Assembly: GCF_006716425.1 (NCBI RefSeq)
Contig: NZ_VFOZ01000001.1
Coordinates: 620,001-684,000, forward strand
DNA from: Actinoallomurus bryophytorum
GTDB lineage: Bacteria; Actinomycetota; Actinomycetes; Streptosporangiales; Streptosporangiaceae
DNA length: 64,000 bases
Direction of reading: 5' to 3'
Shown: one piece after another, positions 24,588 through 32,103 of the stretch
Position numbering within the stretch: position 1 is the first letter of the stretch
Layout of the letters: every line of letters begins with the position of its first letter
Notes under the pieces: model-generated
What the model saw: only the letters and a program-made list of their open reading frames with translations
Database searches by the model: none
What the model was told of the DNA's origin: nothing
Translations under genes and position numbers: made by a program

Positions 24588-26216
24588 CTACCGGCCGTGG
24601 CCGCCGGCCACCCGGATGGTCACGGTCGCGGTACGGGTGACGGCGGGGAGCTTCGTGGTGTCGATGACCAGGTACTCGCCGTCGTCCTGGGTGCCGTTCG
24701 GCAGCGTCTTGACGTGCAGCGGGAACGGCGGCACGTCCGACGTGACACCGTCGACGCCGAAGTCGTTGTCGTTGCTGACGACGATGGTGCGCCCGCCGTC
24801 CGTGGTCGCGACCCCCTCGACCTTGTCGTGGCCGAAGAAGCCGCCCGTGGGGTCGAGGCGGGTCACCAGGCCGCCCAGGTCGACGTCCAGGCTCTTGCGC
24901 ACCGGGGTGACGCCCACGCCGGCCAGGTCCTTGCCCGACTGCGCGGTGTCGTCCGTACCGACGTACGCGTCGATCGTCCTGCCGCCCACGAGCAGGCCGC
25001 CCTTGGCCGCGTCGTAGGTGGCCCCGGGCACCGACGCGTGCGGGCCGACATCGGTCGCGCCCCTCAGGTCGATCTTGAACAGCTTCTTGAAGGCGTTCGG
25101 CTCGAAACCGCCGTCACGCTCGTCGACGAGGAACGTGGTGGCGCTGAGCGCGGTGATCTCGCTGACCGCCCCGCTGTTGTCCTTGGGGTCGTCGAGGAGG
25201 TAGATGTACTCGTGCGTGGTCCGCGTGCGCAGGTCGTACGTCACGATGCGCAGCGTGGTGACGTTCGCCGGCTTGGCGGTGACGTCCGGCTGCTGCAGCG
25301 CCGACTGCATCATCCCCACCAGCGTCCTGCCGTCCGGGGTGACGGTGAGGCCCTCCATGCCCTTGTTCGGCACCCGGTTGGCGAGCTCGCGCGGAAGCGA
25401 GCCGTCGAAGGGCGAGAGCCGCTGCGTCGCCCGGCCGCCGCGGTCGAAGTGCGTGATGAACGGGCCGTACTCGTCCGACACCCAGAAGCCGCCGTCCGGC
25501 ATGGCGACCAGGCCTTCGGAGTCATAGCCCGACGCGTCCGGCGCCAGCGCCGCGCCATCGCGGTCGACGAGGTTCTCACCGGTCGTGGCCTGGGGGTTCA
25601 CCCGGCCCGAGTACGGGGTGCCGTCCGCCTCCCGCAGCGGGATCGTCTTCTCCAGTACGGCCTTGCGGTCGACGAGGCGGAACCTGCCGATCGCCGGGGT
25701 GAAGCCGGGCAGCGGGAGGATCTTCTCCCCGCCGGGACCGTCGACGTTCGGGCCGCGGTCGGTCAGGCCGTAGTACTCATCGCGCGAGCCGGGTACCGGG
25801 GCCAGCGACGAGCCGTAGGCGCCGCCCGTGATCGGCACGCCGCCGATCGTGGCCAGCGGGGGCAGGTGCGTCGGGTACAGGCCCACGGCGTCGCTGACCG
25901 TGTAGTCGAACGTGTCCGTGCCGACGAAGCCCGCGGCGGGCGTGTAGCGGAAGGAGCCGTCGGCGTTCAGGCTCAGCGACCCGTGGGCCGGCGAGGTGTG
26001 CGAGGTCAGCGTGATCCGGTCACCGGTGTCGTTGCGGAAGAGCCCCGCCGCGTCGAGGGTGTGACCGGCCCGCGTTCCGTAGGCGTCGTCGCGTGCCGTG
26101 AGCGCGTGGCCGTGCGCGTGTGCCGCCCCGGCGGCCTCCGCGGTCCCACCCCCCGTCAGCGCCAGGGTCAGCGTCGCGGCGGCGGTGATGGCGGTGGTGG
26201 CGTTCAGGCGATTCAT
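24588..26216 (-). CDS. Secreted esterase-like/phytase-like beta-propeller protein
   Basis: A 542-residue exported protein. The signal peptide (MNRLNATTAITAAATLTLAL, cleaved near AEA-AG) is followed by a cadherin/VCBS-like Ig module (about 45-115: RNDTGDRITLTSHTSPAHGSL without its ends) and an esterase-like-activity-of-phytase domain (from about 130), with DSEGLVAMPDGGFWVSDEYGP, GMEGLTVTPDGRTLVGMMQS, VEGVATTDGGRTIVVSNDND and a C-terminal strand. The family is calcium-binding; some members are phytases or alkaline phosphatases, most are untested. GGGGAGG precedes ATG 26216. It probably scavenges phosphate esters outside the cell (inference). Confidence 0.88.
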   Translation of the reverse strand: MNRLNATTAITAAATLTLALTGGGTAEAAGAAHAHGHALTARDDAYGTRAGHTLDAAGLFRNDTGDRITLTSHTSPAHGSLSLNADGSFRYTPAAGFVGTDTFDYTVSDAVGLYPTHLPPLATIGGVPITGGAYGSSLAPVPGSRDEYYGLTDRGPNVDGPGGEKILPLPGFTPAIGRFRLVDRKAVLEKTIPLREADGTPYSGRVNPQATTGENLVDRDGAALAPDASGYDSEGLVAMPDGGFWVSDEYGPFITHFDRGGRATQRLSPFDGSLPRELANRVPNKGMEGLTVTPDGRTLVGMMQSALQQPDVTAKPANVTTLRIVTYDLRTRTTHEYIYLLDDPKDNSGAVSEITALSATTFLVDERDGGFEPNAFKKLFKIDLRGATDVGPHASVPGATYDAAKGGLLVGGRTIDAYVGTDDTAQSGKDLAGVGVTPVRKSLDVDLGGLVTRLDPTGGFFGHDKVEGVATTDGGRTIVVSNDNDFGVDGVTSDVPPFPLHVKTLPNGTQDDGEYLVIDTTKLPAVTRTATVTIRVAGGHGR

Positions 26217-26561: not shown

Positions 26562-28943
26562 ATGTCGATGACCGCACCGGTCTCCGGCCCACCTGTCCCC
26601 CGGCGCTGGATCGCCCTGGTCTTCATAGCGCTGGCCCAGCTGATGGTCGTCCTCGACGCGACCATCGTGAACATCGCCCTGCCGTCCGCCCAGAGGGCCC
26701 TGGAGATCTCCGACGCGAACCGCCAATGGATGATCACCGCGTACACGCTCGCGTTCGGCGGTTTACTCCTGTTCGGCGGCAGGGTCGGCGACCTCATGGG
26801 CCGCAGGCGCGCCTTTCTCATCGGCCTCGTCGGCTTCGCGGGGGCCTCGGCCCTGGGCGGCGCCGCCGTCAACGAGGGCATGCTGCTCGGCGCGCGTGCG
26901 CTGCAGGGAGCGTTCGGCGCGCTGCTGGCCCCGTCGGCGCTGTCGCTGCTCGCCGTGACGTTCACCGCCCCGAAGGAGCGGGCCAAGGCGTTCGGCATCT
27001 ACGGCGCGATCGCGGGCGGTGGCGCGGCCATCGGGCTGATCGTCGGCGGCCTGCTCACCGAATACCTCAACTGGCGCTGGGCGCTGTACGTCAACGTGCC
27101 GGTCGCCGCCATCGGGCTCACCGGCGGGCTGCTCTTCGTACGCGACCCGGTCACCGCGCGGGGCCGCGGCCGCCTCGACCTGCCCGGCGTCGTCCTGGTC
27201 ACCACGGGCCTGATCGCGCTGGTCTACGGCTTCACCCGAGCCGAGTCCGAGGGCTGGGGCGAACCCGGCGTGGTCGGCCTGCTCACGGTGGCGGGCGTGC
27301 TGCTGGTGGCGTTCGCCGTGGTGGAGAGCCTGACCAGGGAGCCGTTGCTGCCGCTGCGGGTGATCCTGGACCGCAACCGCGGCGGCGCCTACCTGTCGGT
27401 CGGCCTGTCGGTGATCGGGATGTTCGGGCTGTTCCTGTTCCTGACCTACTACCTGCAGAACGTCAAGCACTACTCACCCGTCCGGACCGGCCTGGCGTTC
27501 CTGCCGATGACCGCCGGCATGATCACGGGTTCGACGCAGATCGCCGCGCGGCTGATGAACCGCGTGCCGGCGCGCCTGCTGATGGTGCCCGGTCTCCTCG
27601 TGGCCGCGACGGGCGTCGCGCTGCTGACCCGGCTGCAGGTCGACAGCGCGTACGCCGCCCTGGTCCTGCCCTCACAGCTCCTGCTCGGCATCGGGCTCGG
27701 CACGGCGCTCATGCCCGCGATGAACCTCGCCACGGCGGGCGTCGACTCACGCGACGCGGGTGTCGCCTCGGCCATGGTGAACACCTCCCAGCAGGTCGGC
27801 GGCTCGCTCGGCACCGCCCTGCTGAACACCATCGGCGCCACCGCGACCACCGGCTACATCGCGACGCACGCGGGGAGCCGGCCCTCGGCGGGTATCGCGG
27901 CGGCCGGCCTGGTGCACGGCTTCACCGTCGCCCTCTGGTGGGCGATGGGCGTCATCTGCCTGGCCGCGCTCGCCGTCGCCGTGCTGATCAACAGCAGGGG
28001 CGAGCGCAGGGCCGCGCGGGTCGCCGCCGAGCCCGGGGTGCCGGAGCCGGTCATCGCGGAGGCCCCGCGCACCAGGGAGCTCGCGTCCGTCGGCGCGCGC
28101 GCCGAGCCGCCGCACGACGACGGCACGCACGCGCGGCCCGCGTACGCCCCGAGGGTGTCCGCGGCGTTCGGTGACGTCGGCGCCCGGGTCCACGGCCGGG
28201 TACGCGGTGGCGACGGAGGCCCGGTCGTGGGTGCGGCGCTCACGCTGATCGACCTCGGCGGACGCCAGGTCGACCGTGCGGGCACCCGCGCCGACGGCTC
28301 GTACATGCTGGCGGCGCCCGGTTCGGGTCCGTACATGCTGATCGCGGCGGCCGACGGCCACCAGCCGCAGGCGGCCACCGTCATGGTCGGCGACGAGCCG
28401 CTCGGCTATGACGTGACGCTTTCGGGCACCTCCGGCCTGTCCGGCATCGTGCGCAGCGCCGCGACCGGCGCGCGGGTCAAGGGCGCGATGGTCGTGGTGA
28501 CCGACGCGCACGGCGAGGTGATCGCCTCCGCGGAGACGGGGCGCGACGGGGAGTTCTCCTTCGACGACCTCGTCTCCGGCACCTTCGTCGTCGCGGTGAG
28601 CGGGCGCCGCCACCGGCCCTGCGCGATGCCGGTCGAGGTGGCCGGCCAGGGCACCACGCACTGTGAGGTGGAGCTGCCGCCCGCCGCCCGTGTGCACGGC
28701 ACCGTGCGCGCCGGCACCGACGACCTGCTGCTGGCCGACGCGCGGGTCACCCTTGTCGACGCCGCCGGCAACGTCATCGCCACGGCCACCACCGGCCCCG
28801 ACGGCACGTACGCCTTCGAGGACCTGGACCCCGGGCCGTACACCGTGATCGCCAGCGGCTATCCGCCGGTCGCGGCCACGCTGACGATCGGGCAGGCGGC
28901 CCCCGAGGCGTTCGGCCTCACGCTCAGCCACCCGGACGAGTGA
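26562..28943 (+). CDS. DHA2-type MFS transporter fused to carboxypeptidase-regulatory-like domains
   Basis: A 793-residue membrane protein. Residues 1-485 or so are a 14-helix drug:H+ antiporter-2 transporter (EmrB/QacA type): motif A GGRVGDLMGRRRAF after helix 2, ATIVNIALPSAQRAL in helix 1, and a helix-5 G-rich stretch. A linker of about 60 Ala/Glu/Arg-rich residues leads to three tandem beta-sandwich domains of the CarboxypepD_reg/CnaB type (about 545-625, 626-705 and 706-793), each with VxGxVr, a G-A-xVtL strand, dG-x-aYxfxdLxPGxYtv and a closing strand. Most MFS exporters end after the last helix, so the tail is unusual. The 28-nt gap to a YceI gene bearing a similar domain suggests one operon. 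Confidence 0.9.
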   Translation: MSMTAPVSGPPVPRRWIALVFIALAQLMVVLDATIVNIALPSAQRALEISDANRQWMITAYTLAFGGLLLFGGRVGDLMGRRRAFLIGLVGFAGASALGGAAVNEGMLLGARALQGAFGALLAPSALSLLAVTFTAPKERAKAFGIYGAIAGGGAAIGLIVGGLLTEYLNWRWALYVNVPVAAIGLTGGLLFVRDPVTARGRGRLDLPGVVLVTTGLIALVYGFTRAESEGWGEPGVVGLLTVAGVLLVAFAVVESLTREPLLPLRVILDRNRGGAYLSVGLSVIGMFGLFLFLTYYLQNVKHYSPVRTGLAFLPMTAGMITGSTQIAARLMNRVPARLLMVPGLLVAATGVALLTRLQVDSAYAALVLPSQLLLGIGLGTALMPAMNLATAGVDSRDAGVASAMVNTSQQVGGSLGTALLNTIGATATTGYIATHAGSRPSAGIAAAGLVHGFTVALWWAMGVICLAALAVAVLINSRGERRAARVAAEPGVPEPVIAEAPRTRELASVGARAEPPHDDGTHARPAYAPRVSAAFGDVGARVHGRVRGGDGGPVVGAALTLIDLGGRQVDRAGTRADGSYMLAAPGSGPYMLIAAADGHQPQAATVMVGDEPLGYDVTLSGTSGLSGIVRSAATGARVKGAMVVVTDAHGEVIASAETGRDGEFSFDDLVSGTFVVAVSGRRHRPCAMPVEVAGQGTTHCEVELPPAARVHGTVRAGTDDLLLADARVTLVDAAGNVIATATTGPDGTYAFEDLDPGPYTVIASGYPPVAATLTIGQAAPEAFGLTLSHPDE

Positions 28944-28971
28944 CGTCCTCCGAGAAGGAGCAGGAGTCGTA

Positions 28972-29796
28972 ATGGACAACCGGGGCCTTCGCGCACGGGT
29001 CCGCACCAAGGACGGCTGGGCGCTGCCCCACGCGGTCGTCACGGTCGCCGACATGACGGGCCAGCAGATCTCCCGCGCCCAGGCGGACCACGACGGCGTC
29101 GTGTGCACCGGCCCCTTACCGGCCGGGCGCTACACGGCGATCGTCACGGCCATCGGGTACGCCCCGACGGCGTCGACCGCGAAGATCGGGCCGGCGGGCG
29201 CCGCCGAGCTCGGCACCGTCGTGCTGACCCGCCAGGCCGGCACGGACCTGCCCATGCCCGGACCGTGGACCATCGACCCGGCGCATTCGACCGTCATGGT
29301 CACCGTCCGGCATCTGGGCCTGTCGAGTGTCCACGGCCGGTTCGGGGAGTTCGCCGGCCGCATCGACGTCGCCGCGCACCTCGAGCGGTCCCGGGTGGCG
29401 GCCGAGATCAAGGCCGCCACGATCGACACCGCCGTCGCGATGCGGGACCAGCATCTGCGCGGCCCCGACTTCCTGGACGTCCAGCGCTTCCCGCTCATCA
29501 CGTACACGGGTGCCCGCGTGACACCGGCGGGCGAAGACCGCTGGACCGTGCACGGTGAGCTCTCGCTGAAGGACGTCCGGCGCCCGGTGGAGCTGGACCT
29601 GACCTACCTCGGCACCGGCCCGGACCCGTGGGGCGGCCGCCGTGCGGCGTTCCGCGCGACGACCGAGCTGCGGCGCGAGGACTTCTCCATGGTCTACAAC
29701 CAGATCCTGTCCGCCGGCATCGGCGCGATCGGCACCACCCTCCGCGTGGCCATCGACATCCAGGCCGTACGCGGCGAGCGGCTGCCGCCCGGCTGA
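28972..29796 (+). CDS. YceI-family lipid-binding protein with N-terminal beta-sandwich domain
   Basis: A 274-residue protein. Residues 3-90 form one carboxypeptidase-regulatory-like domain (LRARVRTKDGWALPHAVVTV, DGVVCTGPLPAGRYTAIVTA). Residues 97-272 are YceI: WTIDPAHSTVMVTVRHLGLS, SVHGRFGEFAGRI, RDQHLRGPDFLDVQRFPLIT and the C-terminal R-[ED]-DFSMVYNQ segment. YceI is a lipocalin-like barrel that binds polyisoprenoid or other hydrophobic ligands. There is no signal peptide, so it would stay in the cytoplasm. AAGGAGCAGGAG precedes ATG 28972. It shares its extra domain type with the upstream transporter. Confidence 0.9.
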   Translation: MDNRGLRARVRTKDGWALPHAVVTVADMTGQQISRAQADHDGVVCTGPLPAGRYTAIVTAIGYAPTASTAKIGPAGAAELGTVVLTRQAGTDLPMPGPWTIDPAHSTVMVTVRHLGLSSVHGRFGEFAGRIDVAAHLERSRVAAEIKAATIDTAVAMRDQHLRGPDFLDVQRFPLITYTGARVTPAGEDRWTVHGELSLKDVRRPVELDLTYLGTGPDPWGGRRAAFRATTELRREDFSMVYNQILSAGIGAIGTTLRVAIDIQAVRGERLPPG

Positions 29797-29799
29797 GTC

Positions 29800-30411
29800 T
29801 CAGCGGGGAGGCGAGAAGGACGGGCCGCCGTCCGGCCCGGAACTGGTGCGTTCGGCCAGGCCTGCGGCCATGCCCTCCAGGTCGAGGCCCTGCCGGGTCA
29901 GATCGCCGCTGAGCGTGTCCATGATGGTCAGCGTCACGTGCAGGAAGACGTCCGGCGCGAGGCGGCGCACCTCGGCCTCGTACACGCGGTGCGCCTCGGG
30001 GTTGCCGGTCAGCGCGGCCAGCACGCCCGAGCGCACCCGCTGGCTCATCGTGCGCCACACCTGCTCACGCTCGGGTATCACGCCGGACCGCCACGGGCCG
30101 TCGTAGTCGAGGGAGCGGATCAGGTCACCCGCCGGTGAGCCGGAGCGCAGGTCCCACAGCACCGACCAGAACGCGATGAGCCAGTTCATTCCGGTGAGCA
30201 CGCGCAGCGGGTCGGTGTCCATCGCGCCGAACAGCTCGGCCTGCGGGTGGTCGTCCTCGCGGAAGGCCAGCGCCTCGATCCGGACGACGTCCTCGATCGC
30301 CAGCAGCTCGGAGGGGGGACGGCGGAGCACGGTCGAACGCCCGGAAACCGTATCCCGTAGTTCGACCCCGTCTCCCTGCGGCAGGGTCGACCACATATAG
30401 GGCCCGGACAT
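29800..30411 (-). CDS. Conserved-looking hypothetical protein
   Basis: A 203-residue mainly helical protein without signal peptide or membrane helix. It has a short beta-rich start (GDGVELRDTVSGRSTVLRR), a helical middle (MNWLIAFWSVLWDLRSGSPAGDLIRSL) and a helical C-terminus ending in a Gly/Pro-rich tail. I do not recognise a family. ATG 30411 is chosen; GTG 30417 is two codons upstream and neither has a strong ribosome site. The stop is 3 nt from the convergent YceI stop. Confidence 0.65.
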   Translation of the reverse strand: MSGPYMWSTLPQGDGVELRDTVSGRSTVLRRPPSELLAIEDVVRIEALAFREDDHPQAELFGAMDTDPLRVLTGMNWLIAFWSVLWDLRSGSPAGDLIRSLDYDGPWRSGVIPEREQVWRTMSQRVRSGVLAALTGNPEAHRVYEAEVRRLAPDVFLHVTLTIMDTLSGDLTRQGLDLEGMAAGLAERTSSGPDGGPSFSPPR

Positions 30412-30547
30412 GATCACAACCGTAGGACGAACGCGCCACGAACGCGGTTCCAGCCCGCTGCCCGCATTCGGCCACCCTTCTCCGATACCCGACTCATGGT
30501 CTCACGCCGTACGCCGGGTACTGCCGGAACGCGCTGCCGGCCGCCGG

Positions 30548-31753
30548 TCAGGACCGTTCGCGGACGCGACGTTCGAGGAAGGCGCGTTCGGCCGGAGGCG
30601 GCTCGAGGCTCAGCGCGGTGCGGTAGGCGGTCAGGGCCTCGTCGCGGCGGCCCAGGCGGCTCAGGAGCTCGGCCCGCGCGATGTGCAGCTGAGGCCAGCC
30701 GGCCAGCCGCGGATGCTCGCGCACGCCGTCCAGGATCTTCAGGCCCGCCGCCGGGCCGTCCGCCATGCCGACCGCGACGGCGCGGTTCGCCTCCACCACC
30801 GGGGACGGCTCGTAGCGGAGGAGTTCCCGGTAGAGCGCCGCGATCTGCGGCCAGTCGGTGACCGGAGCGGCCGAGTGACAGGCGGCGATCGCGGCGTGCA
30901 CCTGGTAGGGCCCCGGCCGCCCCATCCGTAGGGCGTGCTCGACGAGTGCCTCACCCTCGTTGATCATCTCGGTGTTCCAGCGGCTCCGGTCCTGGTCCTC
31001 CAGCAGGACGAGCGAGCCGCCGTCGTCGGTACGCGCGTCACGGCGTGCGTCGGTGAGCAGCAGCAGGGCCAGCAGGCCGACGACCTCCGGCTCACCGGGC
31101 ATGAGACGGGCGAGCACGCGGGCCAGCCGGACCGCCGTGTCACAGAGATCGCCGCGGACCAGCGACGGCCCGCCGGAGGCCCGATGCCCTTCGGTGAACA
31201 CGAGATAGACGACGCGCAGCACGGCGTCCAGGCGCGGCGCCAGGTACGCGGCGCCGGGCACGCCGAAGGAGATCCCCGCCTGTCTGATCTTGCGCTTGGC
31301 ACGTACGAGCCGCTGCGCCATCGTCGGCTCCGGCACCAGGAACGCGGCGGCGATCTCGGCGGTGCCCAGTCCGCAGACCGAGCGCAGCGTTAGCGCCACG
31401 CGTACCCCCGGATCGAGGGACGGGTGGCAGCACAGGAAGATCAGGGCGAGCTCGTCGTCCAGGATCGGGCCCTCCGCGGGCGGGGCCCCGCCGGCGTCGC
31501 GTACCGCCACGGTCTCCTTCTCCACGCGCCTGGAGTCACGTCGCAGCCGGTCGAGGGCCTTGTGCCGGGCCACCCCGACCAGCCACGCCCGCGGATTGGC
31601 CGGCACGCCCTCGGACGGCCACCGGTCCAGCGCCACGACGCAGGCGTCCTGGACGGCGTCCTCGGCCACCTCGAGGTCGCCCACGAGACGGGTGGTCGCG
31701 GCGACCGCCGCGCCCCAGTGGGCGCGGAACAGGTCGCCGTACCGGCCGTTCAG
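30548..31753 (-). CDS. ECF sigma factor, ECF42-type with C-terminal extension
   Basis: A 401-residue sigma factor far longer than a minimal ECF. Sigma-2 (LFRAHWGAAVAATTRLVGD, then AEDAVQDACVVALDRWP) and sigma-4 (GLGTAEIAAAFLVPEPTMAQ RLVRAKRKIR) lie in the first 180 residues, followed by a DUF6596/TPR-like C-terminal part (AVVxGYLALEPT-like helices). This architecture with a DGPF/YCII partner defines group ECF42; there is no anti-sigma gene. The start is probably CTG 31753: GGAGG lies 7 nt upstream and it overlaps the partner's stop as CTGA. The only ATG in frame (31855) would overlap the partner by about 100 nt. Confidence 0.85.
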   Translation of the reverse strand: MNGRYGDLFRAHWGAAVAATTRLVGDLEVAEDAVQDACVVALDRWPSEGVPANPRAWLVGVARHKALDRLRRDSRRVEKETVAVRDAGGAPPAEGPILDDELALIFLCCHPSLDPGVRVALTLRSVCGLGTAEIAAAFLVPEPTMAQRLVRAKRKIRQAGISFGVPGAAYLAPRLDAVLRVVYLVFTEGHRASGGPSLVRGDLCDTAVRLARVLARLMPGEPEVVGLLALLLLTDARRDARTDDGGSLVLLEDQDRSRWNTEMINEGEALVEHALRMGRPGPYQVHAAIAACHSAAPVTDWPQIAALYRELLRYEPSPVVEANRAVAVGMADGPAAGLKILDGVREHPRLAGWPQLHIARAELLSRLGRRDEALTAYRTALSLEPPPAERAFLERRVRERS

Positions 31754-32103
31754 GCGGGCACCTCCACCGGTACGAGAGGTCGCACCTCCACCGACCCGCC
31801 GTTCGCCGCGGGCATCAGGGCCGCCCACCTGAGCGCCTCGTCCAGGTCGGCGCACTCGACCAGGGTGTACCCGCCGAAGTGCTCCTTGATCTCGGCGGCC
31901 GGGCCGTCGGTGAGCAGGGTCTCACCGTCGCGGACCTGTACGGTCGTGGACGCGGAGACCGGCTGCAGCGGCGCGCAGTCGATCAGCACCCCCGCCTTGG
32001 CCAGCGCTTCGTTGGCGGCCTTGTACGCGGTGTAGGTCTCCCGCTGCTCCTCGGCACTCTGCTCGTCGAGCGGCGTTCCGTACAGCAAGAACAGGTACTT
32101 CAT
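31750..32103 (-). CDS. YCII-related DGPF-domain protein
   Basis: A 117-residue dimeric alpha/beta-barrel protein of the YCII/DGPF type: start KYLFLLYGTP, LLTDGPAAEIKEHFGGYTLVE (motif DGPF reads DGPA here) and ALRWAALMPAA. Such proteins are the fixed partners of ECF42 sigma factors and may sense or process an unknown ligand. It overlaps the downstream sigma gene by four bases, so the two are translationally coupled. Confidence 0.9.
   Translation of the reverse strand: MKYLFLLYGTPLDEQSAEEQRETYTAYKAANEALAKAGVLIDCAPLQPVSASTTVQVRDGETLLTDGPAAEIKEHFGGYTLVECADLDEALRWAALMPAANGGSVEVRPLVPVEVPA

Follow-up and report, generated by a model that had tools for sequence, protein, structure and literature searches.

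Drug exporters of the major facilitator superfamily (MFS) are thought to draw their substrates straight from the membrane or the cytosol, and those of the DHA2 kind are proton-driven. Among lipocalins of the YceI family, Escherichia coli YceI and BcnA of Burkholderia are secreted, a trait that is not common to all members, and domains of the CarboxypepD_reg/transthyretin-like type, as in carboxypeptidase D and NOMO, usually work in secreted or lumenal proteins. BcnA captures hydrophobic antibiotics outside the cell, thereby sequestering them, and was crystallised with octaprenyl pyrophosphate (PMC5350466). In Streptomyces avermitilis, SAV4189 represses its own operon; sav_4189 is induced ~143-fold by hygromycin B and ~81-fold by thiostrepton, sav_4190 ~75-fold and ~71-fold, respectively, and deletion of sav_4190 raises the avermectin yield by ~56-67% (PMC6036246). 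Here we describe a gene pair in a 64,000-nucleotide (nt) stretch of the Actinoallomurus bryophytorum genome (contig NZ_VFOZ01000001.1, positions 620,001 to 684,000; this whole stretch is referred to as the window), in which a DHA2-type MFS exporter carries a C-terminal tail of three CarboxypepD_reg (CR; PF13620) domains in the order D1-D2-D3 (CR3), and the next gene fuses a CR domain to a YceI lipocalin-like barrel (CR-YceI). The pairing of these domains is conserved, and the same tail is found on several exporter bodies. We propose that the two genes form one efflux unit, in which an exporter with a docking tail would be served by a cytosolic lipocalin delivering its cargo; to this reading, drawn from sequence comparisons, we give close to an even chance.

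The exporter (793 amino acids [aa]; 26562..28943, plus strand, as for all parts of the pair) was defined by Pfam, NCBIfam and hydropathy. It consists of a membrane body (residues 1-476; 26562..27989), with an MFS_1 domain at residues 22-418 (E 2.3e-49), and a tail with three CarboxypepD_reg stretches (E 1.1e-34), which comprise D1 (residues ~539-621; 28176..28424), D2 (residues ~622-705; 28425..28676) and D3 (residues ~706-791, best stretch 711-781; 28677..28934). Besides sharing PF13620 with the known CarboxypepD_reg/transthyretin-like proteins, these domains give profile matches to PDB chains of NOMO2 and carboxypeptidase D. The exporter stop is followed after 28 nt by the start of CR-YceI (274 aa; 28972..29796), with a purine-rich stretch, AAGGAGCAGGAG (28955..28966), as the predicted ribosome-binding site of the second gene. 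The CR domain of this protein spans residues 6-85 (28987..29226; PF13620, E 3.9e-10), and the YceI domain, at residues 99-265 (29266..29766), is complete (positions 1-150 of 150 of the PF04264 profile, E 2.7e-40). The preliminary description of this locus, as an exporter with three C-terminal CR domains and a CR-YceI fusion 28 nt further on, is thus confirmed. Profile searches with CR-YceI relatives return TT1927b (1wub), E. coli YceI (1y0g) and PA0423 (7bwl) as matches to the YceI part, while the window protein differs from YceI/BcnA lipocalins in being fused to a CR domain, in having no apparent signal peptide and in being paired with an exporter.

At 239.9 bits, the exporter scores above the curated cut-off (230.2) of TIGR00711 (DHA2/EmrB, NCBIfam), and it differs from EmrB/DHA2 drug exporters by the extra CR3 tail of ~250 residues; no EmrA-type adaptor was found by eye among the called neighbouring genes in the window. 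The 14 membrane helices given in the preliminary description are reached in the mean hydropathy of eight relatives at the lenient threshold alone, and the number therefore rests mainly on the family: at a threshold of 0.8, 14 segments are seen up to residue 476, along with five called stretches in the CR tail, while at 1.3 there are 12 segments in this region and one in the tail. Under the 14-segment model, even-numbered loops contain 24 lysine and arginine residues and odd-numbered loops 8, a distribution by which N-terminus and tail would both be cytoplasmic. An external tail, which had originally been left as an alternative to a cytoplasmic one, is disfavoured by this charge bias. CR-YceI shows no strongly hydrophobic stretch at its N-terminus in hydropathy, and thus lacks the secretion feature of E. 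coli YceI and BcnA. The exporter tail and CR-YceI therefore both seem to face the cytosol, as direct contact between them would require, and the probable cytoplasmic location distinguishes the window's CR domains from the usual members of their family.

To follow the pair across genomes, we used the best 80 of 587 confirmed stretches, chosen by their CR-YceI, as named loci; L034-L038 were dropped as copies of named loci, and five of the 80 (L048-L051 and L054) come from genomes that are also part of the genus sample. A CR3-bearing gene lies directly upstream of CR-YceI and on the same strand in 78 of the 80 (75 MFS exporters, one MMPL transporter and two genes cut by a contig end). As the loci were picked by CR-YceI, the neighbour is an independent observation, even though the loci are related by descent. 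The two exceptions are L085, in which the MFS-CR3 gene is convergent, and L122, where transposase-like genes, identified by eye, lie upstream of CR-YceI (L122:2245-5738) and no CR3 exporter is present on the stretch fetched. In the genus, the window-type pair is present in six of eight sampled genomes. All eight contain a second, divergent locus with the order MFS-CR2, free-standing CR3 protein, CR-YceI; the CR3 protein has 258 aa in five of the eight open reading frame (ORF) calls and belongs to longer ORFs in the rest. The MFS, CR3 and CR-YceI parts are thus fused in one system of the genus and separate in another.

Among 121 genomes of the order (CR-YceI matches with E up to 1e-60, CR3 tails with E up to 1e-40), 20 contain CR-YceI and 20 contain CR3; 19 have both, each is found alone in one, and the two are adjacent in 19 of the 19 genomes with both (Fisher p 5.7e-20 for co-occurrence, the genomes not being independent by descent). 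The distance to a CR3 tail is 8-274 nt for each of the 21 full-length CR-YceI places. A match in G394 covers the YceI part only (137-271 of 272), its CR domain being called by one script and not by another. Conversely, 3 of 24 CR3 places do not adjoin CR-YceI: L032 and L198, both from the genome of the window, and the one in G317. In a sample of 101 Streptomyces genomes, for which we used 71 CR-YceI genes of at least 405 bits and 77 CR3 tails of at least about 340 bits among the matches listed, the system is common: the 71 CR-YceI genes are spread over 70 of the 101 genomes, and 69 of them lie within 2 kb of such a CR3 tail. Of the remaining two, L203 shows two CR domains in an ORF truncated at a contig end, and L204 an MFS gene with a single partial CR domain. 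Across a phylum sample of 296 genomes, the CR-YceI profile matched in 58, covering the CR domain too in only 13. The suggestion that the two fusions belong together is strongly supported by these data, and independent occurrence, which had been named as an argument against it, is not what the order shows for this class of proteins. With the same domains and gene order in the genus, the order and Streptomyces, the MFS-CR3/CR-YceI arrangement is beyond chance. That the genes are chance neighbours, or the domains spurious calls, has a next to negligible probability and is refuted by the Pfam E-values together with the conserved pairing.

The tail is shared by exporters whose bodies are only distantly related. 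Clustered at 45% identity, the bodies of CR3 exporters fall into groups I (mostly Streptomyces), II (which includes the window), III (the MFS-CR2 proteins of the genus), IV, V and MMPL. In a set of 25 pairs, 14 of them from group I, mean identities between groups I and II are 28% for the body, 59% for the tail and 66% for CR-YceI; the corresponding values are 26%, 61% and 72% for groups I and IV, and 23%, 53% and 63% for groups II and IV. Within groups, in contrast, the body is conserved best (74-85%, versus 67-76% for the tails). In the same set, the partial correlation of distances is 0.63 between tail and CR-YceI given the body and 0.35 between body and CR-YceI given the tail. A CR3 tail is also found on an unrelated transporter, of the MMPL type, beside CR-YceI (L072:4381-7722, plus strand). 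A solo MMPL-CR3 gene, preceded by a gene that looks TetR-like by eye, is present at L184:5334-8414 (minus strand); the two MMPL proteins are separated by clustering at 45%, yet their bodies are 76% identical over 739 residues. With bodies 23-28% and tails 53-61% identical, the tail appears to have moved between pumps, mostly along with its YceI partner.

Phylogenetic trees point in the same direction. For the tail tree we took 75 tails of 235 residues or more in which all three CR domains are present, among them 24 of the 70 paired tails of group I; the body tree comprised 72 bodies, 27 of them tail-less. In approximately unbiased (AU) tests on 37 tails, from which rows of unknown body and the long branch L063 were excluded, a single tail clade per body was rejected for group I (p 9e-5) and for group II (p 0.007). 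Tail-less pumps nest in the wider clade of body II, near the window's body, and a single clade of tailed pumps within body II is rejected (AU p 1.1e-6; 13 tailed and 14 tail-less rows); tailed body II pumps therefore form two lineages, reflecting two gains, or a gain with losses. A tail clade of 43 rows, with 97% support in the Shimodaira-Hasegawa-like approximate likelihood ratio test (SH-aLRT), unites paired tails of bodies I (23 of 24), II (8 of 8) and IV (3 of 3), the paired MMPL tail, two paired tails of unknown body and six solo tails. Of the 12 solo tails on bodies I and II, 11 fall outside this clade. Simple vertical inheritance of one tailed pump is ruled out by these trees and by the identities of bodies and tails.

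In a tree of 99 individual CR domains, whose few columns do not settle the deep order, tail domains group by position across bodies and the free-standing CR3 protein (D1 90%, D3 80%, D2 46%, D2 and D3 together 94%), so that CR3 seems to have moved as one cassette; the window's D1, D2 and D3 cluster accordingly, D2 with weak support. The CR domains of paired (99%) and solo (97%) YceI proteins form lineages of their own, and an origin of the YceI protein's CR domain as a recent copy of a tail domain is unsupported. The earlier statement that both partners use the same domain type thus holds at the family level and no further, given the separate and moderately supported YceI lineages. Nine tail columns mark pairing, seven of them in D2-D3 or at the end, and were not used as evidence. 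Branch lengths of the tail and body trees, judged by eye, show no consistent pattern of faster tail evolution in solo pumps. At L199:6526-7791 (minus strand), a 421-aa ORF joins a short N-terminus that looks membrane-spanning to CR3, and represents either a pump remnant or a separate membrane-anchored CR3 protein.

The regulatory context of the Streptomyces loci links the system to a described operon. A MarR gene lies directly upstream in 62 of the 78 paired named loci, and in 55 of these 62 the published 13-bp SAV4189 palindrome is found around the MarR start, with 103 matches near the start (5.2 per kb) as compared to 13 elsewhere in the same loci (0.013 per kb). Four loci contain three sites at spacings of 41 and 29 nt, which fits the sites a, b1 and b2 described in PMC6036246. 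MarR length (160-170 aa in the examples), the short gap, a small divergent upstream gene and the pump length likewise agree with sav_4188-sav_4190 as described. Based on palindromes, MarR gene, gene order and size, with S. avermitilis represented by the description in that paper, we infer that the Streptomyces MarR/MFS-CR3/CR-YceI loci correspond to the SAV4189-SAV4190 operon (SCO4032-SCO4031 in S. coelicolor). Both SCO4031 and SCO4032 appear among the novobiocin-induced genes tabulated in PMC6637917; their changes during differentiation (PMC3897704) were not used as evidence. The main text of PMC6036246 contains the words "ycei", "carboxypeptidase" and "lipocalin" zero times. Compared to the Streptomyces locus L065, the window's tail is 60% and its CR-YceI 66% identical, and window-type and Streptomyces-type tails share one clade (97% SH-aLRT); the window's body, however, belongs to another subfamily (30% identity to L065), lies in a separate clade and is not orthologous.

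We suggest the following mechanism. CR-YceI, as a cytosolic lipocalin, would capture an amphiphilic or hydrophobic compound, candidates being an antibiotic, a metabolite of the cell's own, or a damaged lipid or isoprenoid. It would then dock by its CR domain on the CR3 tail of the exporter and bring the cargo to the pump, from which the MFS protein would export it in a proton-driven manner. Docking is supported by the recurrence of this tail beside the same CR-YceI, on distantly related MFS bodies as well as on MMPL, and the efflux reading by the drug link, that is, the palindromes and MarR genes that connect the pair to an antibiotic-inducible operon, together with the existence of an antibiotic-binding YceI lipocalin. 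In more general terms, a transplantable cytoplasmic docking tail may link a dedicated lipocalin of the cytosol to exporters of several MFS lineages and to MMPL, amounting to binding-protein-dependent efflux from the cytoplasmic side, a generalisation that the comparisons make plausible and that we hold with somewhat greater reserve.

The same pairing, adjacency and tracking of distances would also be expected if the two proteins formed one functional unit in which the lipocalin, loaded or empty, would act as a sensor that gates the pump by binding to its tail, and no cargo is handed over. MMPL transporters take their substrates by another route, and with the tail on such a protein as well, a switch would be easier to transfer than a route for handing over cargo. 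Yet no regulatory site is known, and in the described case of BcnA the lipocalin fold acts as a carrier or scavenger (PMC5350466). We consider such a sensor improbable, though deserving of attention.

Several findings weigh against a dedicated docking unit. In Streptomyces, CR3 exporters and CR-YceI proteins are also often found solo: with every CR3 and every CR-YceI included, both are present in 82 of the 101 genomes, CR3 alone in 7, CR-YceI alone in 8 and neither in 4, and co-occurrence over all paralogues is weak (Fisher p 0.025). The parts live apart in 7 and 8 genomes and so must function somehow alone or with other partners, which is the strongest counter-evidence, and the tail cannot serve this partner alone. 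G317 has a tailed pump whose tail is near that of its paired kin, and no CR-YceI match at the threshold used. Not all paired tails form one clade (AU p 1.8e-6), solo tails being nested among them: a separate clade is made up of L039, 11 further paired tails from other genera in the order and two solo tails, the free-standing CR3 proteins of the genus form a third, and L191 stands alone. L204, in which the MFS gene adjoining CR-YceI shows just a single, partial CR domain, and L202, with a split CR-YceI reading frame, reflect either decay or errors in sequencing. For loci of the Streptomycetaceae, the start of the YceI protein's CR domain is mostly 90-380 nt past the pump stop, and CR-YceI may thus have its own promoter. 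Finally, unlike the SAV4189-SAV4190 operon, the window has no MarR gene among the called genes upstream of the exporter and no exact match to the SAV4189-type site TTGCCYKHRSCAA, the two matches with one mismatch being far off and at chance level.

Some of these points would be accounted for if the two proteins made no contact, the CR3 tail serving pump clustering, stability or another partner, and CR-YceI being a scavenger that shares the operon through a common stress response. Besides the solo proteins, the neighbourhood of solo Streptomyces MFS-CR3 pumps is in line with this idea: three of the 14 solo loci that we inspected are preceded on the same strand by a Polyketide_cyc2 (SRPBCC) gene (L183:7583-8026, minus; L186:2584-3024, plus; L224:2912-3355, plus). 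SRPBCC is another fold for hydrophobic ligands, and its presence beside solo pumps may reflect an inherited neighbourhood. On the other hand, exporters of different kinds bear the same tail next to the same CR-YceI, the correlation of tail with CR-YceI distances exceeds what the body accounts for, and in the second locus of the genus a free-standing CR3 lies between MFS and CR-YceI. We therefore regard the absence of contact as an unlikely explanation, with a little more in its favour than the sensor. Fourteen lower-scoring Streptomyces CR-YceI loci (L169-L182) contain no CR-bearing transporter in the 12 kb fetched. Some of these solo genes (L170, L182 and L174) stand in housekeeping surroundings and represent another class of CR-YceI; a neighbour in L170 is DNA polymerase III delta (Pfam), and lepA-, rpsT- or miaB-like genes were recognised by eye near solo CR-YceI of this type.

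Which compounds the proposed unit would handle cuts across these explanations. MMPL proteins move lipids, and some solved YceI relatives are named polyisoprenoid-binding. In addition, the BcnA crystal with its isoprenoid ligand (PMC5350466) and a related lipocalin that counters lipid peroxidation (PMC9113575) would fit a cargo drawn from the cell's own lipids or isoprenoids, such as a quinone, a polyprenyl phosphate or an oxidised lipid, rather than drugs. Against such a cargo stands the fact that hygromycin B and thiostrepton induce the probable Streptomyces counterpart (PMC6036246) and novobiocin SCO4031/SCO4032 (PMC6637917), although induction need not mean that the inducer is transported. 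We consider an own-lipid cargo possible but doubtful. An isoprenoid, as in the preliminary description, would be one ligand option, but what has been published on the regulation of the probable Streptomyces counterpart suggests antibiotics or other amphiphiles instead. A plain YceI protein has been linked to sulfonamide-degradation genes in actinobacteria (PMC6868719). In several genomes of the genus, a plain YceI gene without a CR domain is convergent to a plain DHA2 MFS gene (for example G000:C1:5624589-5626577, covered by L003 and L215; G006:C49; G005:C273).

The exporter family, the YceI family and, by inference, the MarR-MFS operon are already known. Among the open-licence PMC papers listed by our searches, in contrast, we found no description of the CR3 tail, of its spread over exporter families or of its pairing with CR-YceI, and no article in this collection has YceI, MFS and "carboxypeptidase regulatory-like" together. 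A soluble lipocalin that plugs into an MFS exporter would, if true, be a new way of supplying a pump and account for the access of poorly soluble compounds to it; with docking and delivery from the cytoplasmic side, it could represent a new principle, the efflux counterpart to the periplasmic binding proteins of import systems. The interchangeable tail provides a natural experiment on modular coupling. As deletion of the pump in the probable counterpart raises the avermectin yield (PMC6036246), the partner gene offers an easily testable handle on antibiotic production.

In the window, the called gene upstream of the exporter (24588-26216, minus strand) encodes a phytase-like esterase domain protein with an N-terminal Big_9/cadherin-like domain. 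Just past CR-YceI lies a convergent gene (29800-30417, minus strand; at most 205 aa) with no Pfam match at E 1e-4, followed by a gene for an ECF-type sigma factor carrying a DUF6596 domain (30548-31828, minus strand).

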